Shown: positions 18,691-21,196 of the stretch, in pieces
Position numbering within the stretch: the first letter of the stretch is position 1
Layout: each line of letters opens with the position of its first letter
DNA from: Thiotrichaceae bacterium
GTDB taxonomy: Bacteria > Pseudomonadota > Gammaproteobacteria > Thiotrichales > Thiotrichaceae
Reading direction: 5' to 3'
Assembly: GCA_023144895.1 (NCBI GenBank)
Contig: JAGLEV010000008.1
Coordinates: 1 to 39,593 of the forward strand
DNA: 39,593 nucleotides
Notes under the pieces: model-generated
Database searches by the model: none
What the model saw: the letters and a program-made list of their open reading frames with translations, nothing else
Told to the model about the DNA's origin: nothing
Program-made: the position numbers and the translations under genes

Positions 18691-18809
18691 GACCTGAGAA
18701 GCGTTATAACTAATAGAACAGCAATCTTTGGTCAACACATTCACAAATTTTAAGTCCTAACAGCCCTACGGAAGTTAAGTACTCAAAATTATGTTAATCG
18801 AGATTAATT

Positions 18810-19355
18810 TTGGTAAATAGTACGCTAAATCAGTTTTTCTTATTGCAAGAAAAGCGTGCCTTAGTTATGGCACGAATCGCGCTAAATAACGATGATGCAG
18901 CGCTTGATGTCGTGCAAAATGCAATGTTAAAGCATTATACTCACTATGCCGATCGTCCTGAAAATGAATGGGCAAAGCTGTTTCAGCGTATTTTACAAAA
19001 CTGTATTAATGATCAATTTCGTAAACGTACTTTAAGACAACGTTTTTTTACACTGTTTAATAGTAAAGAAGAGCAAGACGAGATACTCGAATCAAAACAT
19101 GTTATTGATGAATCACAGCAACCATTAAGTCAACTTAATGAACATGAATTTTCAGCACATCTTGAACGAGAACTCCGTAAACTCACGGGTCGACAACGCC
19201 AAAGTTTTTTATTACGTGCATGGGAAGGTTACAGTAACGAAGAATGTGCAAGACTTATGGGATGCTCTGTTGGTAGTGTGAAAAGTCATTATTTTCGCGC
19301 ACAACATAAATTGCAACAGGGTATGAAGTACCAGAGCAAGGAGGAAGCTCAATGA
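18810..19355 (+). CDS. ECF-type RNA polymerase sigma factor
   Basis: A 181-residue sigma-70 family regulator with only regions 2 and 4. Region 2 covers about 25-75 (DVVQNAMLKHY, then FQRILQNCINDQFRKR), and region 4 covers about 121-170 with a helix-turn-helix (LTGRQRQSFLLRAWEGYSNEECARLMGCSVGSVKSHYFRAQHKL, cut here into family terms only). The linker (about 80-115) is polar. The start is a TTG at 18810; no ATG is in frame, and a GAG at 18800-18802 is the only ribosome-site candidate. The stop overlaps the next gene's ATG by 4 bases (ATGA), so translation is coupled to the putative anti-sigma factor. Stimulus and target promoters are unknown. Confidence 0.9.
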   Translation: MVNSTLNQFFLLQEKRALVMARIALNNDDAALDVVQNAMLKHYTHYADRPENEWAKLFQRILQNCINDQFRKRTLRQRFFTLFNSKEEQDEILESKHVIDESQQPLSQLNEHEFSAHLERELRKLTGRQRQSFLLRAWEGYSNEECARLMGCSVGSVKSHYFRAQHKLQQGMKYQSKEEAQ

Positions 19356-19699
19356 AACCGACACAATCACTAGATTGGGTAAAACAAGGATTGGATCACC
19401 AGACCCATCATGTTGACCCTAAATCTCAAAAAAAACTCTATGCCTTTAGAGAACATCTTTTTAACTCAAAAATAAAAAAGAAGAACTCTCGTTATTTCCG
19501 CTGGTATGCCAGTGGTGCTACATTAGCCAGCTTAGTGCTTATTACTTTCTCTCTAACAGCACCTGATCCAACAATTTTCCAGCAATCTTCAATCGAAGAT
19601 ATTGATCTATTAGCAAGTAATAACGAACCTGTTTTCTATCAAGATTTAGAATTTTATCAATGGCTAGAATCAGAAAATAACAATGATATACATTATTAA
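19352..19699 (+). CDS. DUF3619-like membrane protein, putative anti-sigma factor
   Basis: A 115-residue protein with one transmembrane helix (about 51-71), an N-terminal cytoplasmic part of about 47 residues rich in Lys and Gln, and a periplasmic tail of about 44 residues ending in DLEFYQWLE. That topology and the tail motif recall DUF3619 proteins, which are found beside sigma factors and DUF3106 genes. The 4-base overlap with the sigma gene is typical of sigma/anti-sigma pairs. That it binds the sigma factor is inference from position and shape; there is no zinc-binding anti-sigma motif. A gap of 181 bases separates it from the DUF3106 gene. Confidence 0.7.
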   Translation: MKPTQSLDWVKQGLDHQTHHVDPKSQKKLYAFREHLFNSKIKKKNSRYFRWYASGATLASLVLITFSLTAPDPTIFQQSSIEDIDLLASNNEPVFYQDLEFYQWLESENNNDIHY

Positions 19700-19880
19700 T
19701 AGCTAATGAGAGACCTTTGTAAGAGTCAAATACCGATGAGCACTGTGTTAAAAAATAATTTTAAAATATTGATTGATCGTAGTAAACTGTATTTTTTATC
19801 AACGTTCACCTTACTCTTACAAAACTTTTCTCATACCAGTATCTCCAAAATAATAACAATGAAACGAAGGGCAAAATCTA

Positions 19881-20339
19881 ATGAAAGATAGACTATTAAG
19901 GCAACTACTCATTGCGTTTCTATTACTAACTATTCCCTATATTAGCCTTGCTACTCCTTGGAACAAACTCACTTTAGAAGAAAAACGTATGCTAGCACCC
20001 TATAAGCAAAAGTGGGCTAGCCTTTCAAAACAGCGTCGACAACACCTAAGAAAAACAGGGAAAAAATGGCGAACCATGAACCCCAAACAACGCCAGCAGA
20101 TGAAAAAACGCATCCGTCGCTGGAAAAAAATGAGTCCCATACAACGTAAGCAAGCAAAACATGGTTATCAATGGTTTAATAGCCAATCCCCCTCAGTTAA
20201 ACGTCGTATTCGCGCCCGCCGCCATTGGTTTAGTTCCCTCCCTTCAGTCCAACGCAAAAAATTACGCCAACGCTGGAGTAAAATGACACCTAAACAACGT
20301 CAACTTTTTATAAAACAATCCAAGAAATCTAGTCAATGA
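19881..20339 (+). CDS. DUF3106 protein: exported, highly basic, Trp-repeat
   Basis: A 152-residue protein with a clear signal peptide (residues 1-24, cleavage after SLA). The mature part is built of about seven loose helical repeats of roughly 16-18 residues, each with a Trp or aromatic residue, a Leu or Met, and a Pro-x-QR or similar stretch. It is extremely rich in Lys, Arg and Gln with few acidic residues, so its charge is strongly positive. This fits DUF3106, a periplasmic family of unknown function. Its place after a sigma factor and a DUF3619 gene makes it the likely regulated product. The stop overlaps the next gene by 4 bases (ATGA). Confidence 0.8.
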   Translation: MKDRLLRQLLIAFLLLTIPYISLATPWNKLTLEEKRMLAPYKQKWASLSKQRRQHLRKTGKKWRTMNPKQRQQMKKRIRRWKKMSPIQRKQAKHGYQWFNSQSPSVKRRIRARRHWFSSLPSVQRKKLRQRWSKMTPKQRQLFIKQSKKSSQ

Positions 20340-21196
20340 GTTACTTAGAACGTATACAGTCATGCCACCAGTTTGATCGTAGTGAATATTTAAACTTTGT
20401 GATTGATGGTGAGACTATGGGACTCACTCACCCTCAATTTGCTGAGCAATTACTGCGCTGGGGTAATGTTTTTCAACTTGAAAATAATCACTTAGTGCTT
20501 AATCCTAAGCTCACTGACTTTGATCAGCGCACCCAAGCCATTAAGCCCATTATGGAACAATTACACCAAGAAGGCGTTATTCCTTCATGGGTCAATGAGG
20601 GCTATCCAGTATCACATCACTTCGATGAAGAACCAAAAATGGCAGTAGAGCGCGCCGCTTCATCTTATCTAGGTACACGAAATTATGGCATTCATATTAA
20701 TGGTTTAGTAAAAAAATCTGATGGCATTTATAACTGGGTTGCGGTACGCGCTAAAGATAAACCTTTTTGGCCAGGAAAGCTTGATCAAATGGTTGCTGGT
20801 GGGCAAGGTATTGGTATTAGCTTAATGGACAATGTTATCAAAGAATCAGCTGAGGAAGCTGATATTCCTGTAGATATTGCCAGTCAAGCCCAGCAACGAA
20901 CCACTTTGCACTATTGTAATCACTCAAACAATGGCATCAGTATAGTGACTTTATTTAACTATGACCTATGGCTAGCGGAAGATTTTACGCCTGTTAATAC
21001 TGATGGTGAAGTGGATGAGTTTATTCTCATGCCATTGGAAGAAGTTGCTGAGATTATTGATACCTCAGAGCAATTTAAAAGCAATTGTAATCTGGTTAAT
21101 ATCGATTTACTCATACGTTCTGGAATCATTACACAGTCGCATCCTGATTTTAAAGCAATAACAGAATGCTTGTATGCTCCTGCAATTCAGCTTTGA
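20336..21196 (+). CDS. DUF4743/Nudix hydrolase, thiamine-metabolism type
   Basis: A 286-residue protein with an N-terminal DUF4743 region (about 1-115) and a C-terminal Nudix domain, the arrangement of the yeast YJR142W family, whose members remove phosphate from oxidised or damaged thiamine diphosphates. The GNVF, PSWVNEGYPV and ERAASSYLGTRNYGIHINGL blocks are typical. The Nudix box (about 155-177) ends in KESAEEAD, with Lys in place of the usual Arg and no Glu at the fifth-after-Gly position; the family tolerates this. It overlaps the DUF3106 gene by 4 bases, so it may share the sigma-factor transcript, though no functional link is known. Confidence 0.85.
   Translation: MSYLERIQSCHQFDRSEYLNFVIDGETMGLTHPQFAEQLLRWGNVFQLENNHLVLNPKLTDFDQRTQAIKPIMEQLHQEGVIPSWVNEGYPVSHHFDEEPKMAVERAASSYLGTRNYGIHINGLVKKSDGIYNWVAVRAKDKPFWPGKLDQMVAGGQGIGISLMDNVIKESAEEADIPVDIASQAQQRTTLHYCNHSNNGISIVTLFNYDLWLAEDFTPVNTDGEVDEFILMPLEEVAEIIDTSEQFKSNCNLVNIDLLIRSGIITQSHPDFKAITECLYAPAIQL

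Follow-up and report, generated by a model that had tools for sequence, protein, structure and literature searches.

Three consecutive genes in a 39,593-nucleotide stretch of a Thiotrichaceae bacterium contig (JAGLEV010000008.1; the window, meaning this whole stretch) encode an ECF sigma factor, a membrane protein, and an exported basic protein, the last two falling in or near the domain families DUF3619 and DUF3106. Do the three form one regulatory module, and what would each protein do in it?

Locus anatomy

An initial annotation of this DNA had described a row in which a sigma factor overlaps a single-transmembrane protein by 4 bases and is followed by an exported, extremely basic protein of about seven Trp-containing repeats. 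Open reading frames, family scores, and hydropathy bore out this description in all respects, and the locus comprises the following features.

18731..18757, + strand: candidate autoregulatory ECF promoter, diverged; GTCAAC -35 box, then AGTCC, ~53 bp 5' of the sigma start codon
18810..19355, + strand: ECF sigma factor with regions 2 and 4, NF006550/PRK09047 group, 181 aa, TTG start
19352-19699, + strand: DUF3619-like protein, 115 aa; overlaps the sigma gene by 4 bases (ATGA)
19352..19507, + strand: cytosolic N-terminal domain of the DUF3619-like protein (residues ~1-52), presumed to bind sigma; conserved only where sigma is present
19508..19558, + strand: single transmembrane segment of the DUF3619-like protein (residues ~53-69); hydropathy 1.6, below that of relatives
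19559..19699, + strand: acidic periplasmic tail of the DUF3619-like protein, motif DLLxSxxxxxFYxxLEFYQWL; presumed DUF3106-binding part
19881..20339, + strand: DUF3106 protein, 152 aa; signal peptide at ~residues 1-25, then seven Trp-containing helical repeats
20336..21196, + strand: DUF4743/NUDIX hydrolase gene; 4-base overlap with the DUF3106 stop

The sigma factor passes the cutoffs of NCBIfam NF006550 (180.6 bits, cutoff 173) and of Pfam Sigma70_r4_2 for region 4 (56.9 bits, cutoff 25.7). Its region 2 is recognized below the Pfam threshold (14.1 bits, cutoff 24), and the family profile matches ECF sigma factors in the PDB with E values down to 5.6e-17. The exported protein belongs to DUF3106 (PF11304; 81 bits versus a curated cutoff of 24.3). 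The middle protein scores 18.4 bits against the DUF3619 (PF12279) cutoff of 22.2, and the name DUF3619-like rests on gene position and on a family profile built in this analysis, which recovers it. The sigma and DUF3106 genes are present in one copy each in the 2.64-Mb genome. A gap of 181 bp (19700-19880) separates the DUF3619-like and DUF3106 genes, compared to an order median of 240 bp, and no copy of the sigma motif described below was found in this gap in the 36 loci examined. The DUF4743/NUDIX gene is likely cotranscribed with DUF3106 in the window; it is no conserved partner of the cassette, the neighbors of which vary by lineage.

A near-obligate three-gene cassette

From an even sample of 398 genomes across the phylum, we recovered 39 strong loci with the DUF3106 family model and 38 genomes with the sigma group model. 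Based on gene coordinates, every one of the 38 sigma genes is adjoined by DUF3106. The initial annotation had held that the genes form one module and that finding DUF3106 mostly without the sigma factor would speak against it; sigma is present at 38 of the 39 strong DUF3106 loci, and linkage of the trio holds across the phylum above chance, supporting a module. In named genomes, where at least 595 stretches matched, we took the 80 best sigma loci; DUF3106 lies directly downstream in 78. Marine gammaproteobacterium HTCC2143 (L116) carries it upstream of sigma, the single such case among the 80. At the remaining locus (L178:4049-5089), an RDD-like gene directly follows sigma, and DUF3619 and DUF3106 are absent, an arrangement that may represent a deletion or a misassembly. 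An RDD-family membrane protein gene was also observed 3' of DUF3106 in 48 loci, mostly from betaproteobacteria. The range of the cassette covers Gamma- and Betaproteobacteria plus a few representatives elsewhere, and the named records include Ralstonia, Burkholderia, Cupriavidus, Methylotenera, and Pleionea. We conclude that sigma, DUF3619, and DUF3106 constitute a near-obligate cassette.

Such linkage could in principle reflect an operon conserved by descent only, with no functional interplay among its products, and the distance correlations that mirror-tree tests return for the three proteins are explainable by common descent. Against this, the trio stays constant while flanking genes change between lineages, second, diverged copies of the trio are present within the same genomes, and the two ends of DUF3619 have been lost selectively (see below). 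We regard descent alone as highly improbable.

At three other loci (L032, L033, and L034), more distant copies of sigma occur without DUF3619 and DUF3106, beside a small exported Cys-rich protein (CCTLSCINCSCSCS-like). These are possibly a sister module with a different partner.

DUF3619 has two separable ends

In the family alignment, DUF3619 consists of a cytosolic part of ~45-50 residues with the motif L-D-x5-RL-x2-AR-x2-AL, a transmembrane segment, and a short tail that ends in DxxLL...FYxxLEFYxWL or GFxxWL. AlphaFold2 places two helices (residues 3-18 and 23-45) before the transmembrane segment of the window protein, at a moderate pLDDT of 76 overall. The resulting shape, ~52 residues with two predicted helices and then one transmembrane segment, is that of class II (CnrY-type) anti-sigma factors, in which two helices make up a cytosolic domain of ~50 residues or less before one transmembrane segment. 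Class I (RseA-type) anti-sigma domains measure 101 +/- 33 residues (~100) and often carry HxxxCxxC (PMC7406223); the DUF3619-like protein, with a cytosolic part of ~50 residues and no Cys/His motif, falls outside this type. Searched against the PDB at E values up to 10, the DUF3619 family profile hit none of the anti-sigma chains and had no credible relative by sequence, the known classes sharing almost no sequence with each other (PMC7406223).

We scored the two ends separately, using profiles trained solely on sequences from outside the window's order and applied within it. Intact cassettes (n = 18) had a median N-domain score of 31 bits and a tail score of 20. Seven genomes of one genus have lost sigma and kept DUF3619-DUF3106; their N-domains scored -0.8 bits (never >0) and their tails 25. 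In three cassettes whose DUF3106 is short and degenerate, the N-domain scored 21 bits (17-30) and the tail -0.7 (-0.8 to 3.3). Sigma was lost a second time, independently, in a Zetaproteobacterium-like genome (L105), where DUF3619 is reduced to the transmembrane segment plus tail (52% identical over residues 62-116) beside an intact DUF3106. Across these few independent events (two sigma losses and one clade with degenerate DUF3106), the N-domain disappeared with sigma, and the tail was lost where DUF3106 had degenerated. This pattern is most simply explained by a cytosolic end that works for sigma and a tail that works for DUF3106. Mirror-tree partial correlations gave no sign that the cytosolic domain tracks sigma or that the tail tracks DUF3106. 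The tails are acidic in all loci examined, and their charge correlates weakly and negatively with that of the DUF3106 core, uncorrected for kinship.

Sigma-DUF3619 fusions were detected in five genomes of one family as paralogous ORFs of ~340 aa, each followed by a DUF3106-like gene; their sigma part is degenerate, with region 2 recognizable at 36-47 bits. The DNA-binding part of region 4 looks lost at these loci (L109:3809-5432, L110:2874-4449, and L340-L342), and the fused sigma may no longer function as a sigma factor.

The loss of the cytosolic domain together with sigma and the five natural fusions give strong indirect support to DUF3619 as an anti-sigma factor. The corresponding claim of the initial annotation, a putative anti-sigma factor, stands on these two observations. 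Alternatively, DUF3619 might not be an anti-sigma factor at all, and sigma could be governed by its own transcription, with DUF3619 and DUF3106 as its main target products. Some ECF groups are known, or have been proposed, to be controlled in this way (PMC8999054), and the cytosolic domain of DUF3619 falls short of class I length, with no credible relative in the PDB by sequence. This explanation conflicts with the loss of the cytosolic domain alone upon sigma loss, with the fusions, and with the translational overlap of the sigma and DUF3619 genes; an autoregulated sigma factor without a brake would, moreover, remain on. We consider it improbable and retain DUF3619 as the putative anti-sigma factor. 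Because the DUF3619 tail and DUF3106 survive sigma loss in one genus and in one Zetaproteobacterium, the pair probably also has a role independent of sigma.

DUF3106 is an exported, basic Trp-repeat protein

The seven Trp residues of the window protein (27, 45, 63, 81, 98, 116, and 132) are spaced 16-18 residues apart, and a spacing of 18 is by far the commonest across the family. Past the presumed signal peptide, the protein contains 42 K+R versus 2 D+E (net charge ~+40), and DUF3106 cores are basic in 98% of loci. The AlphaFold2 model (pLDDT 92.4, pTM 0.62) is all-helical, with about one helix of 12-16 residues per repeat. A Foldseek search of this model against the PDB returned no match at E values up to 10, which is not proof of a new fold, and no credible PDB relative was found by sequence. 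A relation to Spy/CpxP (LTXXQ) proteins was considered and rejected (hhalign probability of 1% versus Spy; no PDB fold match); these results gave no support to the scaffold or chaperone role that the initial annotation had suggested for DUF3106. CnrX-type metal sensors are marked by a conserved metal site and a membrane anchor; no conserved His or Cys metal ligands were seen in DUF3106.

Promoter motif and predicted targets

A bipartite ECF-like motif, GTCAAC-N16-CGTTA, lies 5' of sigma in relatives, with varying spacer and distance to the gene. Searched as GTCAAC-N15-17-CG[TA], it precedes 25 of 32 order-level sigma genes (0.1 expected and at most 2 in shuffles) and 15 of 78 at the phylum level (0.4 expected, at most 3). 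In an enlarged sigma set, the motif was found in 30 of 41, and 7 of the 11 misses (G048, G050-G052, and G059-G061), which the start-codon rule had passed over, carry it among the genome-wide matches. It extends to Trichlorobacter, Pleionea, Chromatiales, and others. A betaproteobacterial (including Burkholderiales) promoter motif was not accepted, as GGTCAAG recurs there without a fixed -10.

The initial annotation had called for a search for the sigma factor's motif before the module, and this succeeded in relatives; the window itself carries a diverged variant. GTCAAC is located at 18731, where relatives have the full motif, and AGTCC replaces CGTTA, making for a poor -10. There are 8 GTCAAC-N17-GTC sites in the window's genome, and that at 18731 is the sole intergenic one; the closest relatives give no support for the variant. 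We include 18731..18757 as a low-confidence candidate for an autoregulatory promoter.

Exact matches to the motif were then classed genome-wide as intergenic or not. At the order level, 37 of 82 sites are intergenic, versus 0 of 30 for the reversed pattern (Fisher p 6e-7), and the excess persists without the nine sigma sites (Fisher p 1e-5); outside the order, 16 of 31 sites are intergenic. A same-strand gene other than sigma follows the motif within 250 bp in 26 cases; by a crude export rule, and with orthologous sites counted more than once, 22 of these genes encode predicted exported proteins, compared to 28% in a baseline set of 58 genes. Among the targets, a secreted EF-hand protein stands out most clearly: it occurs in 12 genomes of one genus, 9 of which have the motif between -51 and -77. 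In a gammaproteobacterium outside the order (L408), the protein encoded behind the motif is secreted and contains several EF-hand-like motifs. In three genomes (L413, L415, and L416) the motif precedes lipoproteins that are DUF4382-like or related to such proteins, and at L412 it precedes a second DUF3106-like secreted protein. In Pleionea mediterranea, a second motif site lies directly 5' of DUF3106 (site L127:5424, gene from 5457). The window's own genome yielded no other motif target and no such EF-hand gene. A 300-aa APGGMFRR protein was not accepted as a conserved target, because with the start used just one of its 29 orthologues carries the motif. The envelope response first imagined for this locus fits the results, because in relatives sigma has its own motif before the module and its other predicted targets are exported proteins. 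The EF-hand targets hint at a cation signal.

Several further motif sites were observed. Small exported Val/Glu/Pro-rich proteins, some with Cys, lie behind the motif in four genomes of two genera (L236, L250, L259, and L267), and we know of no family to which they belong. An exported basic 200-aa protein with repeats RISQGIRSGQLTAREA is encoded divergently from the sigma cassette in G007 (L213:1653-2255) and has its own copy of the motif; its first 150 residues have no Pfam match. In one genus (g8; L272, L277, L284, L299, and L300), smpB and a CptA/YgfX-like gene lie near an intergenic GTCAAC-N16-CGTTA that is well conserved and points at the 3' end of an opposite-strand gene; transcription from it could yield a small or antisense RNA. 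A small membrane protein gene resembling this CptA/YgfX-like one directly precedes the DUF3619-DUF3106 pair in the sigma-less genus.

Proposed mechanism

We think it fairly probable that the cassette is an autoregulated envelope module of ECF sigma factor, anti-sigma factor, and periplasmic partner, with a two-ended DUF3619 and feedback through DUF3106. The two-helix cytosolic domain of DUF3619 (~45 residues) would keep sigma inactive, and its short acidic periplasmic tail, with the FYxWL motif, would bind the exported basic DUF3106. An envelope condition that alters occupancy of the tail would free sigma. Sigma would then transcribe the cassette from GTCAAC-N16-CGTTA and, in many relatives, genes for further exported products (EF-hand proteins and lipoproteins) as well. 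Newly made DUF3106 would reoccupy the tail and turn the system off, making it both a periplasmic effector and a feedback reporter. In the window, the diverged promoter would act alike.

DUF3106 could instead be purely a signal receptor, as CnrX is, and have no effector role; its binding of a metal or of some anionic component of the envelope would then cause DUF3619 to free sigma. The three-part architecture is that of CnrYXH, in which metal on the periplasmic CnrX switches CnrY (PMC4598750), and EF-hand proteins among the predicted targets would suit a cation signal. However, DUF3106 and the DUF3619 tail persist without this group's sigma factor, leaving nothing to report to; no conserved metal ligands (His or Cys) were seen in the family, and DUF3106 carries its own sigma promoter in one species. 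A pure receptor is in our judgment unlikely, and we favor DUF3106 as effector plus feedback reporter over a mere sensor because the tail and DUF3106 outlive sigma.

More tentatively, and with somewhat less than even confidence, we suggest that DUF3619 tethers to the membrane a periplasmic assembly with DUF3106 that has its own function, to which the sigma/anti-sigma end is a removable supply gauge. The assembly would be built on the helical Trp-repeat fold, which has no PDB match; occupancy of the tail by DUF3106 would itself be the signal, and the same supply-demand feedback across the inner membrane would also set other exported proteins, such as those with EF hands.

Comparison with known systems

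We found no paper naming DUF3106, DUF3619, or PRK09047 in the part of the literature that was searched, and the neighborhood may already be listed in a paper on ECF classification. Each part of the cassette is in or near a named family, and a CnrYXH-like architecture is already known; what is new, as far as the literature was searched, is the reading of the trio as one regulatory module that has two ends, a promoter of its own, and targets that are exported. The little-studied proteobacterial group ECF293 (PA3285 of Pseudomonas aeruginosa; PMC8999054) is a possible group for the sigma factor. With a predicted promoter, predicted targets, and binding ends assigned to the anti-sigma factor, these two "domains of unknown function" become a directly testable envelope-control system, for which the natural sigma losses are ready-made controls.

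In the RpoE-RseA-RseB system, a periplasmic protein binds the periplasmic part of a membrane anti-sigma factor, and the targets are envelope functions. The cassette is predicted to share the membrane anti-sigma factor with a periplasmic partner and the envelope targets. RseA combines a class I domain with a large periplasmic domain, which DegS cleaves; in DUF3619 the corresponding parts are both very short, and the cassette has no linked protease. The Spy/CpxP (LTXXQ) chaperones are controlled by an envelope stress regulator and are, like DUF3106, small, exported, and all-helical; DUF3106 has no profile relation to Spy.

In the CaBP-SigV loop of Caulobacter vibrioides, a periplasmic EF-hand protein is coupled to an ECF sigma factor (PMC13171946). 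The loop is a precedent for such coupling; its gene arrangement is different, and the abstract mentions no DUF3619/DUF3106 pair.

The CnrYXH genes of Cupriavidus metallidurans are encoded together. With their products (sigma factor CnrH, class II anti-sigma factor CnrY, and sensor CnrX), the cassette shares an ECF sigma factor and, as predicted here, a short two-helix membrane anti-sigma factor and a periplasmic third protein. The two-helix CnrY holds sigma, and metal on periplasmic CnrX switches CnrY (PMC4598750, PMC7406223). In contrast, gene order differs in the cassette, no sequence similarity to the Cnr proteins was found for DUF3619 or DUF3106, and DUF3106, unlike CnrX, is an exported basic repeat protein with no conserved metal site seen. 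The target of CnrYXH is a metal efflux pump, whereas the predicted targets of the cassette are exported proteins.
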